Origin: Nitrospirota bacterium
GTDB lineage: Bacteria > Nitrospirota > Thermodesulfovibrionia > Thermodesulfovibrionales > UBA9159
Length of the DNA: 49,829 bases
Reading direction: 5' to 3'
Assembly: GCA_023382175.1 (NCBI GenBank)
Contig: JAMCQB010000061.1
Span: 1 to 49,829, forward strand
Positions 25,388-34,858 of the stretch are shown here, piece after piece; positions within the stretch are counted from its first letter, which is position 1, and each line of letters starts with the position of its first letter. The position numbers and the translations under genes are program-made. Below the pieces are notes generated by a model. It was not told where the DNA came from. It did no database searches and saw only the letters and a program-made list of their open reading frames with translations.

Positions 25388-26005
25388 ATGAAACCCAGGG
25401 TCAAGGAAATCATAAAAACATTGCATGAGGCCGGCAATGACGCAGAAGATTGTTTGTCTTTATTGCAGACTTCATTCCTTTATCATTCCCTGCAGCACCT
25501 GCATGAATGCCGGAAAAAGATTCACCACTTCAGGGACATCGAACCTCAGCTTACCCGTGAGATCGCTGAACTGGCGAGGGAGCATACCGATGCGAAGCCG
25601 TATGTATCCGTCCCTGTCCATCTCGCGAGGATAGGAGAATGCACGGAGAAACTGGGCGGGTGTATCGAGAAGATGGTGAAGGAACGCGTCCTTTTCAGCG
25701 ACAGGGCCATTGAGGAGGTCACCTATCTCCTCCAGAGGCTCATGGATATCCTGAGGCCGATGTCGGACATCATCCTTGCCAGGAACACCATCCTGGCGAA
25801 ATACGTGAACGAATCCGAGGCAGGGGTTGTGAGAAGGGCGCTGGAATATGCTACACTGCATGAAGAGCGCCTGATCGAAGGGCTCTGCATCCCTTTTGCA
25901 TCATCGCTCTATATCAACATGCTGGACGAGATAAAGAATATCGGCTGGCATGCAAAGGAGATAGCCACAAAGCTTACCGCTGACATGGCAGTGGAAGTGC
26001 AATAA
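25388..26005 (+). CDS. PhoU-like helical protein
   Basis: The 205-residue all-helical protein has two similar helical-bundle halves with spaced acidic and histidine residues. VPVHLARIGECTEKLGGCIE recalls the PhoU metal-binding helix (DLERIGDLAVNI). PhoU-domain proteins modulate phosphate transport or act as transporter accessories, but no phosphate gene is adjacent. GGAAGGAGG lies before the ATG. Family assignment is by pattern only. Confidence 0.6.
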   Translation: MKPRVKEIIKTLHEAGNDAEDCLSLLQTSFLYHSLQHLHECRKKIHHFRDIEPQLTREIAELAREHTDAKPYVSVPVHLARIGECTEKLGGCIEKMVKERVLFSDRAIEEVTYLLQRLMDILRPMSDIILARNTILAKYVNESEAGVVRRALEYATLHEERLIEGLCIPFASSLYINMLDEIKNIGWHAKEIATKLTADMAVEVQ

Positions 26006-26211: not shown

Positions 26212-27270
26212 ATGATCATGTTGTCCGCCTTTCCCAAAAAAAAGGAGTTGAGAATCAGGCAAACTATTCTCAGGGGTGTCTACGAAGACAACCTAAGAAT
26301 CATCGGGAAAGGTTCTGCCGTCCTTTCAAACAGACCGTCCTTCTCCCTCAAGAAGATTTCTCTGTTCATTTCCACGGTATTGCTCGCTCTCCTGGGATAT
26401 GGGAATTACTCGGATCTTTCATTGTCCCCGGACAAACAGATCGCCCCGCTAAGTATCGCGGCACAGCAGCTTTCTCCTTTACCCGCTGAAACATCCGTTC
26501 ATCCATCAGAGTACGCCGCCTTTTTTGGCGGTCAGGCGCATCTGAAGCGGGTGTTCGGGCTGGCGGTAAAGACGATCATGATCGACCCGGGACATGGAGG
26601 CGCTGACTCCGGAACCGTAGGAAAGCTGGGGACCCGGGAAAAGGATATTACCCTGGATATTGCGAAACGGCTCAAGGAAAGACTGAAGAAGCAGGGATAT
26701 TCCAATGTCCTTCTGACCCGTGAAGAGGACATAACTCTTCCCCTTAACAAAAGGGTAGAACTTGCCAATTCAGGCAGGGCAGATCTTTTCATCTCCATAC
26801 ATCTCAATTACCTCCCTTCCAAACCGATAAATATTATCGAGACCTACTATTTTGGTCCCTCTTCAGACGCCAAAACACTGAAGCTCGCAGAGCAGGAAAA
26901 TGCAGGCTCTCACTATGGACTGAGCGACTTCAAGGAGATAATCGAGAAGATCGGTGAGACAGTGAAGCTCCAGGAATCCAGGGAGCTCGCAGGCTCCATC
27001 CAGCAACATCTTTTCGTAAACAGCCTGAAGCAGAACGGGAATGTTCAGGACTTCGGCGTAAAAAGGGCTCCCTTTGTTGTCCTGCTGGGAGTGAATGTGC
27101 CCGCTGTCCTTGCAGAGGTCTCTTGCCTCAGCAACCGGGAGGAAGAGGTCGAACTCAACACGGAGAGCCACAGGGAAAATATCGCACGGTATCTTGAGGC
27201 CGGCATCCTACATTACTTAAGTAAAGGAGAGGTACGCTATGAAGCAAAAAGACTCGAAGAGGGAAGATAA
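26212..27270 (+). CDS. Membrane-anchored N-acetylmuramoyl-L-alanine amidase (Amidase_3)
   Basis: The 352-residue protein has a basic cytoplasmic head of about 46 residues, one membrane anchor (about 47-65), a spacer and an Amidase_3 catalytic domain. Zinc ligands are H128 (IDPGHGG), E143 and H197 (ISIHLNY); the catalytic E302 (LAEVSCLSN) is present. It would cut the amide bond between glycan and stem peptide, making denuded glycan. It lacks an AMIN domain. The actin gene starts inside its last 32 bases, so the two products are made together. Confidence 0.9.
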   Translation: MIMLSAFPKKKELRIRQTILRGVYEDNLRIIGKGSAVLSNRPSFSLKKISLFISTVLLALLGYGNYSDLSLSPDKQIAPLSIAAQQLSPLPAETSVHPSEYAAFFGGQAHLKRVFGLAVKTIMIDPGHGGADSGTVGKLGTREKDITLDIAKRLKERLKKQGYSNVLLTREEDITLPLNKRVELANSGRADLFISIHLNYLPSKPINIIETYYFGPSSDAKTLKLAEQENAGSHYGLSDFKEIIEKIGETVKLQESRELAGSIQQHLFVNSLKQNGNVQDFGVKRAPFVVLLGVNVPAVLAEVSCLSNREEEVELNTESHRENIARYLEAGILHYLSKGEVRYEAKRLEEGR

Positions 27271-28267
27271 TACAGTCTTCGTCGGCATTGACCTCGGAAC
27301 CTCGAGGAGTTCTATCTCTGCAAGCAACAACACAAGGGAATGGATCGAGAGCTATGTGGGCTGGCCCAAGGATTTCATTGCGCTTCAGGTGGTGGGAAAG
27401 CCCGTCCTCTTTGGCGCCGAGGCCCTGAAAAACAGGCTCTCCCTCGACCTCTGCAGGCCTCTGGAACATGGGGTGATAAAGGAGGGCATCGAAAGAAGTG
27501 AAGAAGCGGTGAAGGAGATCATCAAATATCTCATCGAACTCGCAAAACCAGAGCCTGATCAGAAAATCCATGCGGTAGTGGGGGTCCCTGCAGATACCCT
27601 GAAAGTGAACAAGCTTGCCATCAGAAAGGCAGTATCTGAATTTGTGCATTCGTTAATGGTGGTATCGGAACCATTTGCGGTAGCATACGGGATGGATCTG
27701 CTGAACAACTCCCTCGTGATCGACATCGGTGCGGGGACAACAGATTTCTGCATCATGCACGGCACCATTCCCTCAGAGGAGGACCAGAAAACGATCCTCG
27801 CAGCCGGTGATTACATTGATGAACAGCTCTACAGTTATCTCACCGAAAGGTACCCCAATGCGAAGTTCAACAAAAACATGGTGCGTCAGTTCAAAGAGCA
27901 GCACAGTTTTGTGAGAGAGGTCCCCGGCGAAGTCCGCGTTGAAATCCCGGTGGACGGGAAGCCTGTAATGCACGATATCACCAACGAGATACGCCGTGCC
28001 TGTGAAAGCATTCTCCCTGCAATCGTGGAGACGACCACGGAGATGATCGCGCGCTTTGATCCTGAATTTCAGGTAAAGATAAAGAACAACATTGTTCTTG
28101 CAGGCGGCGGCAGCCTCATCAAGGGGATACGTGAATATCTTCAGGATGCGCTGAAGGAGTATGGTTCCTGCAGGGTGACGTGCGTGGAAGATCCCCTCTT
28201 TGCAGGTTCAAACGGCGCGCTCAAGCTTGCAGAGGATATGCCTGCAAAATACTGGGAGACTTTATAA
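27239..28267 (+). CDS. MamK-family bacterial actin
   Basis: The 342-residue protein follows MamK almost end to end. It has phosphate-1 VGIDLGTSRSS (15-25), VGWPKDFIALQVVGKPV, a conserved GVPA, VVSEPFAVAYGMD with the glutamate E144 needed for ATP hydrolysis in MamK, phosphate-2 VIDIGAGTTDFCI (160-172), and adenosine NIVLAGGGSLIKGI (284-297). The end, KLAEDMPAKYWETL, also matches the MamK tail from memory. MamK filaments position magnetosomes; here no magnetosome gene is nearby, and the partners are an amidase and a SPOR protein. AAGGAGAGG precedes its ATG. Confidence 0.9.
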   Translation: MKQKDSKREDNTVFVGIDLGTSRSSISASNNTREWIESYVGWPKDFIALQVVGKPVLFGAEALKNRLSLDLCRPLEHGVIKEGIERSEEAVKEIIKYLIELAKPEPDQKIHAVVGVPADTLKVNKLAIRKAVSEFVHSLMVVSEPFAVAYGMDLLNNSLVIDIGAGTTDFCIMHGTIPSEEDQKTILAAGDYIDEQLYSYLTERYPNAKFNKNMVRQFKEQHSFVREVPGEVRVEIPVDGKPVMHDITNEIRRACESILPAIVETTTEMIARFDPEFQVKIKNNIVLAGGGSLIKGIREYLQDALKEYGSCRVTCVEDPLFAGSNGALKLAEDMPAKYWETL

Positions 28268-28271
28268 TCCC

Positions 28272-29417
28272 ATGGCAAACAAAACGATACTGCTCATCGA
28301 TTCTACTTCTGAAACTGCTCAGGATATCGCGGCGACCCTTGAATCCGAAGATTATCTTGTCTTCATGTCCTCCACTGCAGAGTTTGCGGTTGCCATGGCC
28401 AGGAAAGTGAAGCCGGCGCTCATATTGGTTAACCCCGCAATGGCCGGGGCGAGCGGCCTGGATATCTGCATAAAGCTTCACGAAATAGACGAGCTCAGCA
28501 GCGTGCCGATCATTGCCCTCGCCTCCTTCGAGGGAGAGATGGACCCGCGTTATCGTTCTGAATACGGCATTGTGGACCTGCTCAGGAAACCCTTTACCCA
28601 CAAAGAACTTATAGCAAAGATTGCCGGTGCCCTTTCAGCGGGAGGGGAAGATGTGACGCCTGAGCCCTGGAAGGAGGCGACGGGCCAAGAGGAGATTCCC
28701 GGGGAGAAGGCGGGCAGGTCTGACAGGATCGTTGTGAGACTGAAGGAGAAGAAAGAAGAAAAAGAAACCGAAAAAGTACAGATTCCGGAAGAAGCTGCAC
28801 CCTCAGGCCAGCCCCTGGAGACCGAGGAAATCACGGAGAGAGAAGGTGAAAGGGCATTCGTGGCGAAGAAGCCCATGAGAAGGCGGAGAAGCTCAGGAAG
28901 CAAGTTGTCTCTTCCGGTTATTGTCGCCGCCCTTCTTATCATACTGGGCGCAGCCGGGGTGATGGTCTATAAAATGGGCCTGATCCCGGGTACGGAAGTG
29001 AAGAAAGCGGTCATGGTTAAACCTCCCCAGCCCGCTCAAGAGCAGCCTGTTCAGGAACCTCCTGCACCGGAACAAAAACCTCAGCAGGAAGTTATACAGG
29101 CTAAGCCCCCTGCAGCAGTGTCTCCTCCTGCAGCAATGTCTTCCCCTCCCCCTGTGCAATTGCCGGAGAAAAAACCGGCAGGCAAGGCGCTTTATTCTGT
29201 TCAGATCGGCGCATTCAAGAATGAGAAGAATGCCGAGGCCCTGGCAAAACAGTATAAAGAGAAGGGGTATGACGCCTTTGTGCAGACCATTCCAAAGGAC
29301 AAAGAAATGCTCCACAGGGTTTTGATAGGAATGTTTCAAGACAGGAAAGAGGCCGGGAAACTGGCTGAAGACATCCGGAATAAGGAAAACGTTCAGGCGC
29401 TTGTCATGGGGGACTAA
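28272..29417 (+). CDS. Degenerate receiver - transmembrane - SPOR domain protein
   Basis: From the ATG at 28272, 4 bases after the actin stop, the protein is 381 residues. It has a receiver-like domain (5-120) whose phospho-acceptor is asparagine (N54, ALILVNPAMAG) although K106-P107 is kept. A charged linker (125-205), an RRRR stop and one helix (212-232) follow, then a proline/glutamine-rich periplasmic stalk (250-303) and a SPOR domain (305-379, YSVQIGAFKNEKNAEALAKQY). SPOR domains bind peptidoglycan stripped of stem peptides. It could link the cytoplasmic actin to amidase-treated wall. Confidence 0.9.
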   Translation: MANKTILLIDSTSETAQDIAATLESEDYLVFMSSTAEFAVAMARKVKPALILVNPAMAGASGLDICIKLHEIDELSSVPIIALASFEGEMDPRYRSEYGIVDLLRKPFTHKELIAKIAGALSAGGEDVTPEPWKEATGQEEIPGEKAGRSDRIVVRLKEKKEEKETEKVQIPEEAAPSGQPLETEEITEREGERAFVAKKPMRRRRSSGSKLSLPVIVAALLIILGAAGVMVYKMGLIPGTEVKKAVMVKPPQPAQEQPVQEPPAPEQKPQQEVIQAKPPAAVSPPAAMSSPPPVQLPEKKPAGKALYSVQIGAFKNEKNAEALAKQYKEKGYDAFVQTIPKDKEMLHRVLIGMFQDRKEAGKLAEDIRNKENVQALVMGD

Positions 29418-29725: not shown

Positions 29726-30835
29726 ATGTGCAGGCTGGCAGCCATAACGTCCAATGAGTATTTCTCGCCCATGGAGAACATCCTCGCCCTGGAGACGATG
29801 AAGGAAGGCCACGACGGTTCCGGTCTCGGCCTGACCCTCAAGGACCTGGGGGGCGAATTCGAGGAATTCAAGGAGTTTCCGATCATGTCGGGAATCTGTT
29901 CACGGAAGGGCCTCGATACCCTTGATGATTTCATGAAGAAGCACGGCTTCAGGCTCAAGCATGAGTGGAACCCGAAGATCAAACACGTGAAGGGCGTCGT
30001 TTCCCGGGAATACTATTTTGCAAGGGCGTACGACTATCCGAAATCCTATAAAGAGAAGTCCATGCGGGAAAAGGAAGACCTGCTCATGAACACCCGCCTC
30101 ATGCTCAGGAAGATCGGCGAGCCTGATGAGTCCATTTTCGTCTTTTCATTCTACCCGGACGTGATTACCCTGAAGGAAGTGGGAGACCCCCTTCAGCTGG
30201 GAGAGTTCTTCGGCCTCGACAGGGATGGCCTGAGGGCGAAAATCATCTTTGCTCAGGGGAGGCAGAATACCAATTACGCAATATACCTCTACGCCTGCCA
30301 TCCCTTCTTTATTCAGGGCTTCTGCTCCATGACAAACGGAGAGAATACTGCCTTTGTTCCCATAAGGGAATTTCTCATGGGAAGAGGGTTTCCGGGGTAC
30401 ACAGGATACAACAGCGACAGCGAGGTCTTCACCCACATTCTCCATTACACGGTGAGACAGCTGGGATTTCCCCTGACGTATTACAAAGATGTCATCACCC
30501 CCCTCAAGACCACGGAGATCGATCAGCGTGAGGACAGGGATGCACTGAGACTCGTCAAACAGTCATTGAGACCTCTGTGCATAGACGGCCCTAACATGGT
30601 CATCGGGTTCACTCCCGACGGCACCTGCTTCATGGTGCAGGATGCAAAGAAACTGAGGCCCGGCGCTGTGGGCGGGGTGAAGGGCAAATACGCATTGATG
30701 TCTGAGGAATGCGGAGTTGACAAGGCGGTTCCGAAGAGGGACAGGACCAGGGATATCTTCCCCATGAAATACGACATGGTGACGATTTCGCCTCAGGCAG
30801 AGGAGGTACGGGTATGGAACCAGCTACGCGCTTAG
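29726..30835 (+). CDS. Glutamate synthase, class II glutamine amidotransferase subunit
   Basis: The 369-residue protein starts MCRLAAITSNEYFSP; cysteine 2, exposed after Met removal, is the N-terminal nucleophile of class II amidotransferases. GHDGSGLGL and the substrate-binding FSMTNGEN-like stretch (CSMTNGENTAF) suit a GltB amidotransferase domain. It frees ammonia from glutamine for the next subunit. Having it as a separate gene is the split arrangement known from archaea and some anaerobes. It overlaps the next gene by 22 bases. GAGGAAATAGAG lies before the ATG. Confidence 0.88.
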   Translation: MCRLAAITSNEYFSPMENILALETMKEGHDGSGLGLTLKDLGGEFEEFKEFPIMSGICSRKGLDTLDDFMKKHGFRLKHEWNPKIKHVKGVVSREYYFARAYDYPKSYKEKSMREKEDLLMNTRLMLRKIGEPDESIFVFSFYPDVITLKEVGDPLQLGEFFGLDRDGLRAKIIFAQGRQNTNYAIYLYACHPFFIQGFCSMTNGENTAFVPIREFLMGRGFPGYTGYNSDSEVFTHILHYTVRQLGFPLTYYKDVITPLKTTEIDQREDRDALRLVKQSLRPLCIDGPNMVIGFTPDGTCFMVQDAKKLRPGAVGGVKGKYALMSEECGVDKAVPKRDRTRDIFPMKYDMVTISPQAEEVRVWNQLRA

Positions 30836-32475
30836 ACCACAACCATCAGCTCTCTTTAAGGGAGTTCCCCTATATCATCCGCTGGAGGGATGACCGGTGC
30901 AAGAGGTGCGGGAAGTGCACAGCGGTCTGCCCGGTGAAGGCCATCGAGCCTACGGTGAACGTCCAGAGGACTGTGCATTCGGAAGGACCGCTCCCCCAGC
31001 CCACTGCGGTAAGGAAGGTCATCCAGGTAGTGGAACAGGTCACTGACATGGAGCGGTACTGCACCGGCTGCGGGACCTGCACCCTGGTTTGTCCCAATGA
31101 GGCCATAGAGCCTGAATACAATCCCCAGAACAAGTTTTACCATTACAAGAATAAAAGCGGCGAGCCGTACAAGAGAGGCGGGAGGAGGAACGATCCGTCC
31201 ATATCTACCCTTGATAAGCTCAAGTTCACAAGGATCTCCATGCTCACAGACCCGGCCCTCGACGCCGGCAGGCACGAGTTCCGCGTACGGACACTTCTGG
31301 GAAGGATCCTTCCTCCGGAAGAGCTGCCGTTGAAAATGGTCAACGGAAAGCTGGTGGTGGATAAGGAGAGCGGCAGGTTCATCCCGCCGGTGAGGGAAAT
31401 ATTCCCCATCATGGTCGGCAGCATGTCCGTTGGCGCCCTTTCTCCTCCCATGTGGGAAGGTCTTGCCATGGGTGTGGCCTATCTCAATGAGGTTGAAGGG
31501 CTGCCCGTGGTGATGTGCTCCGGTGAGGGAGGAATGCCGCCGAGACTGCTGAGGTCAAAATACCTGAAATATTTCATCATCCAGATCGCGTCGGGATATT
31601 TCGGATGGGACGAGATCATCCATGCGCTTCCTCACATGGTGGAAGACCCTGCGGCCATCGAGATCAAGTACGGTCAGGGCGCCAAGCCCGGTGACGGCGG
31701 ACTCCTTATGGCCCAGAAGGTCCTGAGGCTCATCGCGAACATCCGCGGGGTGCCCCAGTTCGTGGACCTCTCATCGCCGCCCACTCATCAGACAAAGTAC
31801 TCCATCGAAGAAGCGGTGGCGAAGATGATCCAGTCCATGTCCATGGCCTGGGGCTTCAGGGTGCCGGTCTATCCCAAGATCTCCGGCACAAAGACAGCCC
31901 GTGCGGTGCTGAATAATCTGGCAAGGAATCCCTTTGCTGCCGCCCTCTCCATTGACGGTGAGGACGGCGGAACAGGGGCGGCATACAATGTCTCCCTGGA
32001 CAAGATGGGCCATCCCATAGCATCCAACATCAGGGACTGCTATCTCGACCTTGTGAAACAGGGCAAGCAGAACGAACTCCCCTTGATCGCAGCAGGAGGC
32101 GTGGGCAAGAAAGGGAACCTGGCAGCGAACGCTGCTGCCCTCATCATGCTCGGCGCATCCGCGGTCTCCATAGGGAAATATATCATGCAGGCCGCAGCAG
32201 ACTGTTTCGGCGATGAATACAACCGCTGCAACCTCTGCAACACCGGAAAATGTCCCAGGGGCATCACGACCCAGGACCCGAAGCTTTACAGAAGGCTTGA
32301 TGCAGACAGAGTGGCGGAGCGGGTGGTCGAGACCTTCAAGGCTGCTGATGTGGAGATGAGAAAGATCTTCGCCCCCATGGGAAGAAGCACAGAACTGCCC
32401 ATCGGCATGTCTGATGGCCTGAGCATAGAAGACAAGGCAATGGCAGAGAGGTTAGAGATCAACTATGCGTGCTAA
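30814..32475 (+). CDS. gltB: Glutamate synthase FMN/Fe-S synthase-domain subunit with N-terminal ferredoxin domain
   Basis: The 553-residue protein starts with two [4Fe-4S] motifs (C29, C32, C35, C39 and C83, C86, C89, C93). The FMN-binding synthase barrel follows, with MVGSMSVGALS, GEGGMPPRLL, GQGAKPGDGGLL, SIDGEDGGTGAA and AAGGVGKKGN. The 3Fe-4S loop is CNLCNTGKCPRG. It combines ammonia with 2-oxoglutarate to make glutamate. The added ferredoxin domain, absent from the usual large GltB, would feed electrons directly. It overlaps the next gene by 11 bases. Confidence 0.92.
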   Translation: MEPATRLDHNHQLSLREFPYIIRWRDDRCKRCGKCTAVCPVKAIEPTVNVQRTVHSEGPLPQPTAVRKVIQVVEQVTDMERYCTGCGTCTLVCPNEAIEPEYNPQNKFYHYKNKSGEPYKRGGRRNDPSISTLDKLKFTRISMLTDPALDAGRHEFRVRTLLGRILPPEELPLKMVNGKLVVDKESGRFIPPVREIFPIMVGSMSVGALSPPMWEGLAMGVAYLNEVEGLPVVMCSGEGGMPPRLLRSKYLKYFIIQIASGYFGWDEIIHALPHMVEDPAAIEIKYGQGAKPGDGGLLMAQKVLRLIANIRGVPQFVDLSSPPTHQTKYSIEEAVAKMIQSMSMAWGFRVPVYPKISGTKTARAVLNNLARNPFAAALSIDGEDGGTGAAYNVSLDKMGHPIASNIRDCYLDLVKQGKQNELPLIAAGGVGKKGNLAANAAALIMLGASAVSIGKYIMQAAADCFGDEYNRCNLCNTGKCPRGITTQDPKLYRRLDADRVAERVVETFKAADVEMRKIFAPMGRSTELPIGMSDGLSIEDKAMAERLEINYAC

Positions 32476-34858
32476 GAAAGAACAAAGGGCAAAGGGCAAG
32501 GGGCAAGGGGCAAAAAAGCTCCATGCTCCCAGCTCCATGCTGACAATACACGGCGCCGTGAACGGCAATCGCGTTCCTTCGAGGATCCTTGAGGAGCAGA
32601 TACAGCAGGCGGTCCGGGAAGGGGCGCGGGAACTCCATGTCATCGCTGAGGGTCAGCACGGCATCGGCGGCCGCATCTGGCCGAGGGGCGAAGCAGTAAA
32701 GATAACCGTGGAAGGCCCGGTGGGCCAGAGGCTGGGAAGCATGGGCATGCCCGGCACTGAGATCGTTGTCAGAGGCAGCTCTTCCGATGATATAGGCTGG
32801 CTCAACTGCGGCGCAAAGATAACGGTTTTGGGAGACGTGACCAACGGCGCCTTTAATGCCGCTGCCCAGGGGATCCTCTATGTCCAGGGAGGCGGTGGCG
32901 CGCGGTGCGACACCATGACCAAGCACAACCCCCGTTTTGACCCTCCCCAGTCGTGGTATTTCAGGGATGTGGGAGATTCCTTTGCTGAGTTCAAAGCCGG
33001 CGGTATCGCTGTGGTCTGCGGGGTGAAACCGAGGAACCCTGAGAACATCCTTGGGTACCGTCCCTGTGTCGGCATGGTGGGCGGGACCATCTATTTCCGC
33101 GGCCCCATCAAGGGATACAGCGAGAGGGATGTAAAACTCCTTGACCTCACACCCCAGGACTGGGAATGGCTCAGGACGAATATGCAACCCTTCCTTGAGG
33201 CCATCGACAGGATGCCCTCCTACGAAGAGCTCACCCGCTCCTCTGATGACTGGAAGAAGCTCATGGCATATACACCCCAGGAAAAGAGAGGGAGGAAGTG
33301 GTTCAAGGTCACCACGTCCGACTTCAGAAAGAACATCTGGGAAAAGGAAGTGGGACAGGGCGGCATCTTTGCCGAATACCTGAACCACGACCTCACGCTG
33401 CTGCCCTATATCACCACGGGCACGGAGAGACGGAACAGGCCCCTGTGGGCTAACGAGAAATATGCTCCGCCCTGCGCTTATGCGTGCCCTACGCAGATAC
33501 CTTCCCACAAAAGGGCTTCCCTCATCAGGCAGGGCAGGCTCAATGACGCTTTGGAACTGGTATTGAAATACAGTCCATTGCCCGCAACGGTCTGCGGTGA
33601 GATATGTCCGAACCTCTGCATGCAGAGCTGCACCAGAGCCCATCTCGACAAGCCCCTGGAGATAGACATGATGGGCAAGTTAGCCCTTGATCTCCCTGCC
33701 CCGAAAAAGGAACCGGCAACAGGTCATAAAATTGCGGTGATCGGCGGCGGTCCGGCAGGCATGAGCGCTGCGTGGCAGCTCGCCCTCAAAGGACACACGG
33801 TTGATCTTTATGAAGCCGGGGACAAGCTGGGCGGAAAGATCGAACTCTGTATCCCCAGGGAACGTCTGCCCCACCAGATTCTGGAGAAAGAGGTTTCGCG
33901 GTTCAGGGAACTGGGGGTGAATCTCCACCTCGGCATAAAAGTGACGAGGGAGAAATTCGATGAGATATACAAGAGCCACGAGGTCGTTGTCCTGGCCTGC
34001 GGCGCCCATGAACCGAGAAAGGTATCCTTCCCCGGTTCTGAGGAGATAGTCTCTGCCTATGACTTCCTGAAGAATATCAATCTGGGCAACAGGCCGGATC
34101 TGAAGGGCAAGAAGGTGGTGGTCATCGGAGCGGGCAATGTGGGAATGGACGTTGCTTCAGAGGCATACAACAATGGCGCAGAATCTGTTGTGGCAGTGGA
34201 TATCCAGAAACCCGCTGCCTTCGGAGCAGAGCTGGAGATCGCCAAGGTAAAGGGGACCCAGGTCCTCTGGCCCAAATTTACCGAGCGCTACGACAGGAAC
34301 GAGAGAAAGATCTATTTCAAGGACGGCACTTCCCTGGATGCGGATTTCGTGGTGATGTCCATAGGGGATGTGCCCCAGTTGGATTTCCTCCCCCCTGGCA
34401 TCCATACCGAAAGAGGCTGGATCGTTGTGAATCAAAAATACCAGACCTCGGATGTGAAGGTTTATGCCATCGGGGATGCGACAGGGCTTGGATTGGTGAC
34501 CCATGCCATCGGCCACGGGAGGCTCACCGCGGATTATATCCACTATGAACTGATGCATGCGCCGCGTCAGCCCGAAATCCAGCAGGTCATCCCCTATGAA
34601 AAGATCAAAACAGAATACTACGATGTCTGCCGGGGGGATTTCGTCTCACCCGAGGTATCTGCCAATCGCTGTATGTCCTGCGCAACGTGCAGGGACTGCC
34701 ACATGTGCGAATCCACCTGCTACTGGGGAGCCATCAGCAGAATCGAGCATGCTGACGGCGCGTACGAATACGTAGTTGACGATAGCCTCTGCATAGGCTG
34801 CGGCTTCTGCGCAGGGGTCTGCCCCTGCGGCGTCTGGGAGATGGTGGAGAACGTTTAG
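32465..34858 (+). CDS. Fusion of glutamate synthase GXGXG domain with GltD-type NAD(P)H oxidoreductase and ferredoxin domain
   Basis: The 797-residue protein has, after a repeat-coded head (about 1-20), the GXGXG beta-helix (IGGRIWPRGEAVKITVEGPVG, about 60-230). A Cys-rich GltD head follows (VCGEICPNLCMQSC), then FAD site AVIGGGPAGMSAAW (about 423), NAD site VVIGAGNVGMDVAS (about 551) and two C-terminal cluster motifs (CRDCHMCESTC, CIGCGFCAGVCPCG). It completes the three-gene glutamate synthase and lets NAD(P)H or ferredoxin supply electrons. The start overlaps the gltB stop in ATGCGTGCTAA; a later ATG (about 32537) lacks a ribosome site. Confidence 0.9.
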   Translation: MRAKKEQRAKGKGQGAKKLHAPSSMLTIHGAVNGNRVPSRILEEQIQQAVREGARELHVIAEGQHGIGGRIWPRGEAVKITVEGPVGQRLGSMGMPGTEIVVRGSSSDDIGWLNCGAKITVLGDVTNGAFNAAAQGILYVQGGGGARCDTMTKHNPRFDPPQSWYFRDVGDSFAEFKAGGIAVVCGVKPRNPENILGYRPCVGMVGGTIYFRGPIKGYSERDVKLLDLTPQDWEWLRTNMQPFLEAIDRMPSYEELTRSSDDWKKLMAYTPQEKRGRKWFKVTTSDFRKNIWEKEVGQGGIFAEYLNHDLTLLPYITTGTERRNRPLWANEKYAPPCAYACPTQIPSHKRASLIRQGRLNDALELVLKYSPLPATVCGEICPNLCMQSCTRAHLDKPLEIDMMGKLALDLPAPKKEPATGHKIAVIGGGPAGMSAAWQLALKGHTVDLYEAGDKLGGKIELCIPRERLPHQILEKEVSRFRELGVNLHLGIKVTREKFDEIYKSHEVVVLACGAHEPRKVSFPGSEEIVSAYDFLKNINLGNRPDLKGKKVVVIGAGNVGMDVASEAYNNGAESVVAVDIQKPAAFGAELEIAKVKGTQVLWPKFTERYDRNERKIYFKDGTSLDADFVVMSIGDVPQLDFLPPGIHTERGWIVVNQKYQTSDVKVYAIGDATGLGLVTHAIGHGRLTADYIHYELMHAPRQPEIQQVIPYEKIKTEYYDVCRGDFVSPEVSANRCMSCATCRDCHMCESTCYWGAISRIEHADGAYEYVVDDSLCIGCGFCAGVCPCGVWEMVENV

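Follow-up and report, generated by a model that had tools for sequence, protein, structure and literature searches.

A predicted membrane protein joining a degraded receiver domain to a SPOR domain is encoded beside an amidase and a MamK-family actin in Nitrospirota

A contig of 49,829 nucleotides from a Nitrospirota bacterium (JAMCQB010000061.1, positions 1 to 49,829; hereafter the window) encodes a protein in which a receiver domain with a degraded phosphorylation pocket is joined through one membrane helix to a SPOR domain, directly downstream of the genes for an N-acetylmuramoyl-L-alanine amidase and a MamK-family actin. Proteins with a receiver and a SPOR domain in one open reading frame (REC-SPOR) were found in 65 genomes of the phylum (75 proteins), and none keeps all five canonical phosphorylation residues. 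We consider that there is about an even chance that REC-SPOR is a bitopic protein resembling FtsN and DamX that sits on amidase-processed glycan and uses a phosphate-independent receiver to hold cytoplasmic partners, including the actin. The gene set hints at an undescribed link between the cytoskeleton and the cell wall.

Table 1 Features of the window discussed in the text.
Feature	Position	Strand	Remarks
N-acetylmuramoyl-L-alanine amidase (Amidase_3)	26212..27270	+	N-terminal membrane helix; H128, E143, H197, E302 intact
MamK-family actin-like protein	27239..28267	+	Nucleotide-binding motifs intact; outside any magnetosome cluster
REC-TM-SPOR protein	28272..29417	+	381 aa plus stop; ATG at 28272, stop ends at 29417; from ORF, Pfam, structure model and relatives
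Receiver domain, residues 6-117	28287..28622	+	D10, K106 kept; S11, N54, A84 changed
Single membrane helix, about residues 212-236	28905..28979	+	KKPMRRRR precedes; receiver predicted inside, SPOR outside
SPOR domain, residues 307-378	29190..29405	+	Q311 corresponds to the glycan-contacting residues RlpA Q270 / DamX Q351

The longest frame of the REC-SPOR gene starts upstream of the chosen ATG, at an in-frame TTG (28200). Pfam recognized both the Response_reg domain (45.7 bits, cut-off 30.2) and the SPOR domain (61.2 bits, cut-off 21) of its product. The first search for relatives returned five loci with one full-length relative among them (L003), and an AlphaFold2 model was computed from the window protein, L003, and four partial relatives. 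The model (mean pLDDT 69.7) contains a helix at residues 214–235, a disordered linker, an alternating beta-alpha receiver (blocks within residues 1–120 at pLDDT 80–94), and a SPOR fold (pLDDT 88–96 over residues 311–380). In a Foldseek search, the best solved structural matches of the receiver were the receivers of DivK, RpaA, and MtrA, with a target TM-score of 0.84 for DivK (1mb3), while the nearest solved receivers by sequence were those of PleD. An earlier note on this DNA, made from the letters alone, had proposed a receiver fold with D10 and K106-P107, linked to the SPOR domain by one membrane helix. Pfam, the model, and Foldseek bear out the fold, the outcome that would count against it (a predicted structure other than a receiver) was not seen, and both hydropathy (about residues 212–236) and the model agree on the helix. 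The basic stretch that precedes this helix predicts that the receiver lies inside and the SPOR domain outside. A chance reading frame or an artefact of a single genome could be ruled out because the 75 open reading frames carry both domains, with the same three-part layout in 64 genomes besides that of the window. A PHROGs search gave generic matches only.

The protein shares with FtsN, DedD, and DamX a predicted inside N-terminus, one helix, a long disordered linker, and a C-terminal SPOR domain with a conserved Gln; as far as the predicted topology goes, it is bitopic in the manner of FtsN. FtsN, however, has a short FtsA-binding tail and, in the periplasm, an essential helix through which septal synthesis is activated, whereas the cytoplasmic part here is about 210 residues long and contains a whole receiver fold, and the gene lies beside those for an amidase and a MamK-family actin.

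Two of the five canonical phosphorylation residues are left in the window receiver (D10 and K106). The protein has S at position 11 and A at position 84, where working receivers carry an acidic residue and Thr/Ser, respectively; the pocket is therefore more degraded than the earlier note had stated when it pointed, correctly, to N54 at the acceptor position and to a pocket poor in acidic residues. A profile built from 26 receivers was searched in 395 genomes of the phylum of the window. Among the 75 REC-SPOR proteins in the retrieved loci, the acceptor Asp is absent in 70, the residue at this position being N in 38, S in 15, K in 13, D in 5, E in 2, and R in 2, and the five proteins with the Asp each lack other pocket residues. 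Loss of the Asp is thus conserved, but Asn itself is found in only about half of the proteins. Nor did the idea that Asn marks the copies linked to the actin hold, as it occurs in 16 of the 27 linked and 22 of the 48 unlinked copies. One receiver whose open reading frame ends at a contig end (L155) was left out of the 75, and L081, whose frame starts after an in-frame stop and lacks the first strand, was counted as it stands. The stop codon of L081 (G038:C5, a genome with a magnetosome-type MamK) lies inside the receiver frame and possibly reflects gene decay or an error in sequencing.

Whereas the acceptor and five-residue counts cover 75 proteins, the other per-position counts, for both the receiver and the SPOR domain, cover 60. 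At position 10, 11 of the 33 unlinked copies have Glu instead of Asp and none of the 27 linked copies does, but these replacements are confined to families f4 and f5 and one f8 genome, and we therefore draw nothing from the difference. Four related receivers without a SPOR domain, in REC-DUF4388-type open reading frames of 419–437 aa (L191, L192, L188, and L173), keep all five residues; comparison with these sequences makes the pocket loss of REC-SPOR look derived. The fusion of Response_reg with DUF4388 was confirmed by Pfam in L192, and L188 and L191 adjoin CheY-like and CheA-like open reading frames, as read from their translations.

In the available text of PMC12632262, a receiver missing any one of the five residues is defined as a pseudo-receiver. 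All 75 proteins fall under this definition, the window protein missing three residues, and with N54 at the acceptor position it is also an aspartate-less receiver. It has in common with the pseudo-receivers described in the accessible parts of PMC12632262 and PMC4395418 the fold and the absence of the acceptor Asp and other residues, for which Asn is a common replacement (PMC4395418), but its output part consists of a membrane helix and a domain for wall binding; neither main text, in the form available to us, contains the word SPOR. Judging from its residues, phosphorylation of an Asp is almost certainly not how the receiver works, in line with the suspicion of the earlier note that it takes no phosphate.

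The SPOR domain has a fold that scores above the Pfam cut-off and also has the Gln that contacts glycan (Q311), which is kept in 59 of 60 REC-SPOR proteins. This Gln is the conserved glycan contact in the SPOR domains of RlpA and DamX, and SPOR domains recognize the glycan made by amidase action, according to the part of PMC6895207 at hand. The SPOR domain of the window protein would thus be expected to bind denuded peptidoglycan. A point against the bitopic reading is that the four proteins of family f8 match SPOR weakly, with 34–69 bits (one of them ends at a contig end), compared to 78–110 bits for the remaining copies linked to the actin.

A MamK match over the cut-off was found in 54 of the 395 genomes, which fall into two non-overlapping sets, 19 with a magnetosome-type MamK and 35 with an actin of the window type; loci were divided at 400 bits to the actin of the window, in a gap between 511 and 327. 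With the record L003, the 35 genomes provide 36 window-type loci. In all 36, the amidase gene lies directly upstream of the actin gene and overlaps it (by 32 bases in the window), and H128, E143, H197, and E302, which in this class of amidases bind zinc or act in catalysis, are kept. A hydropathy rule finds an N-terminal membrane helix in 35 of the 36. REC-SPOR is directly downstream of the actin in 27 of the 36 loci, across nine families. In the other nine, it is truly elsewhere in seven; in G382, the receiver is next door but its open reading frame ends at a contig end, and in G057 the actin and REC-SPOR are at the ends of two contigs. Neither an amidase nor a REC-SPOR neighbour was seen at the six magnetosome-type loci examined, out of 20 matches of this type. 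Genes were called by a script as the longest open frames, and the labels of neighbours are approximate. The earlier note had mentioned the neighbouring actin but had named neither its MamK-family identity nor the amidase, whose association with the actin is more constant than that of REC-SPOR.

All sampled genomes with a window-type actin have REC-SPOR (35/35, with both domains in one open reading frame in 34 and at a contig end in one). Conversely, 30 of the 65 REC-SPOR genomes have no window-type actin, 11 being of the magnetosome type and 19 without a MamK match over the cut-off; the 30 are a lower bound, as REC-SPOR status was taken from the retrieved loci, and weaker receiver matches are mostly outside these. 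All presence and absence calls come from draft genomes, and the genomes are related, so that the counts are not independent events. In families f1, f4, f8, and f10, genes flanking REC-SPOR are common to genomes that have the amidase-actin pair and genomes that lack it. In f4, for example, the order is c2-c9-c5-[amidase-actin]-REC-SPOR in G021 and c2-c9-c5-REC-SPOR in G041, G323, and G388. Because the flanks match with and without the pair, amidase and actin come or go as a unit, which we read as repeated loss, although gain is possible too. The linkage between REC-SPOR and the actin changed at least four times, on the starred branches of a receiver tree. This tree is based on few columns, leaves many forks open, and was used only for these changes and for the separation of the f13 clade.

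This f13 clade comprises 17 receivers (support 100/97), and a Mur-ligase-type gene (cluster c0) was adjacent or one gene off in all 11 neighbourhoods read. A second, paralogous REC-SPOR of f13 stands at a conserved position beside the Mur ligase gene at L082, L085, L180, L181, L184, and L189. In G029, G047, G266, G277, and G386, the f13-clade member is the sole REC-SPOR found, and the amidase-actin pair is without one.

The earlier note suggested that the receiver may be a module that binds the neighbouring actin. This is only partly supported: the adjacency at 27 of 36 loci and the presence of REC-SPOR in every genome with the actin speak for it, while the 30 REC-SPOR genomes without the actin and the absence of the pair in four families speak against actin binding as the sole role of the receiver. 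The seven actin loci with REC-SPOR elsewhere also weigh against a tether. The frequent occurrence of REC-SPOR without the actin indicates that a further partner of the receiver exists or is at least possible. It is quite possible, if somewhat doubtful, that it binds only such a partner, either itself, as a dimer through the helix 4-strand 5-helix 5 face, or a general division protein; the actin would then work with the amidase only, and REC-SPOR would be in the operon since it reads the amidase product. The persistence of REC-SPOR where amidase and actin are absent together from one site points this way, as do the f13 paralogues beside a Mur ligase gene instead and the most family-specific of the conserved segments, Y94...Y98-G-I-V. 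It lies on helix 4 and strand 5, and its YGIV takes the place of the GADD common in working receivers. On the other hand, an actin with no bearing on the receiver fits poorly with their adjacency in as many as nine families and with the lack of a single sampled genome in which the window-type actin occurs without REC-SPOR.

It is improbable that the receiver still serves as a signal input, by decoy docking on a histidine kinase or by deamidation of N54 to Asp, tuning the docking of the SPOR domain. K106 is kept in 33 of 60 proteins, position 10 is acidic in 58 of 60, and five of 75 have the acceptor Asp; Asn can also revert to Asp by deamidation according to the available part of PMC4395418. 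However, the full five-residue set occurs in none of the 75, including the five with the Asp, the replacements K, R, S, and E cannot deamidate to Asp, and no kinase gene adjoins the window gene, as read from translations. Still less probable is that the receiver is a decaying remnant next to a SPOR domain that alone matters. Pocket degradation in all members and the length of some branches speak for it, but positions of the core and surface that have no part in phosphorylation are conserved over 60 proteins (P48 in 60, P79 in 59, G99 in 58, Y94 in 51, and Y98 in 46), and the receiver is kept in all 75, even if its presence defined the count.

The actin of the window scores 430.8 bits with the NCBIfam MamK model (cut-off 400), and its second-best named actin family is BeeR, with 239.5 bits, far below the cut-off of 530. 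Its identity to a magnetosome-cluster MamK is 45%, and it scores 317 bits with the solved "Actin-like ATPase" chains 5jyg/5ljv/5ljw, taken here to be MamK. As the same chains give 252 bits with a magnetosome-cluster MamK of the phylum, we do not claim that the window actin lies outside all MamK. Its nucleotide-binding motifs are kept in nearly all actins of its type. Unlike MamK of the magnetosome, it is not in a cluster with other magnetosome genes but is paired with an amidase, next to REC-SPOR, and it lies on a separate branch. In the actin tree, which includes 19 of the magnetosome-type matches, these form one clade (99/100), while window-type actins are one side of a branch in 23% of bootstrap trees and no clade against the MreB root. 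A magnetochrome-PDZ protein (domain named by Pfam) was found in 20 of the 395 genomes, among them all 19 with a magnetosome-type MamK, and a magnetochrome match in none of the 35 with the window-type actin, the genome of the window (86.8% complete) included. The score above the MamK cut-off might suggest that the gene is part of a magnetosome system or of one derived from it. This is hardly credible given this distribution of magnetochrome-PDZ and the split of the two actin types in the tree, and was rejected.

MreB was not found over the cut-off in the genome of the window, where the best match outside the window reached 46.7 bits. All 60 sampled relatives have a MamK-profile match, most at the level taken for MreB. 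The missing MreB may be an assembly gap, as the assembly is 86.8% complete.

The accessible part of PMC9376291 argues for a non-magnetotactic ancestor of Nitrospirota, in keeping with separate histories of the two types of actin. A MamK-family actin accompanied by a gene for an amidase or a SPOR protein is not described in the portions of the MamK papers PMC10653835, PMC9376291, PMC7602337, and PMC12748827 available to us, and no description of REC-SPOR, of MamK with an amidase, or of the three-gene set was found in the open-licence literature. This agrees with the view of the earlier note that the REC-TM-SPOR layout is not a standard one, even though it is kept throughout an order-level group of the phylum. 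The NCBIfam MamK model lumps both kinds of actin, and genomes with the operon could therefore be mistaken for carriers of a magnetosome actin. Tentatively, and with the balance rather against it, the MamK family might have a wide non-magnetosome branch that forms a wall-linked cytoskeleton, a positioning device that reads and writes peptidoglycan, with the filament inside, the amidase outside, and the pseudo-receiver/SPOR adaptor crossing the membrane. From such an envelope actin, the magnetosome MamK was perhaps recruited. If so, MamK-type actins would have a cell-wall role in bacteria without magnetosome genes, which bears on the origin of the magnetosome cytoskeleton.

Returning to the bitopic protein on amidase-processed glycan, its SPOR domain would dock in the periplasm on glycan strands stripped of peptides by the amidase, while the cytoplasmic pseudo-receiver would act as a constitutive protein-binding domain that needs no phosphate. 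The ancestral operon, taken to be as in the window, would have combined the amidase that makes the docking site, the MamK-family actin, and REC-SPOR, the receiver tethering, or being positioned with, the neighbouring actin. As the amidase would make the glycan that the SPOR domain recognizes, we propose a wall-reading and wall-writing module, with an actin where one is present. Filament, wall-cutting enzyme, and wall-reading protein would form one envelope-spanning module at amidase sites, possibly the septum, the new pole, or a growth zone. Such a module could work as a reinforcing loop, like that proposed for FtsN, FtsA, and septal amidases. It is presumably not essential to division, because genomes without the actin presumably divide normally. 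If this reading is right, a receiver has turned from a signal switch into the fixed cytoplasmic anchor of a wall-reading protein.

A precedent is found in the available part of PMC7822825, in which the FtsN-like SPOR protein RgsS and the amidase AmiC of Sinorhizobium meliloti mark the growing pole, with amidase-processed wall serving the SPOR protein as a landmark. As in the window, an FtsN-like SPOR protein and an amidase product would mark a site in the cell, but that part mentions no receiver or MamK-family actin.

Two further observations concern the surroundings of the operon. Upstream of the amidase, an open reading frame of 205 aa (25388–26005) has no Pfam or NCBIfam match. Downstream of REC-SPOR, three consecutive open reading frames (29726–34858) resemble a split glutamate synthase, as read from their translations, and the same three (clusters c43–c45) follow REC-SPOR in G006.
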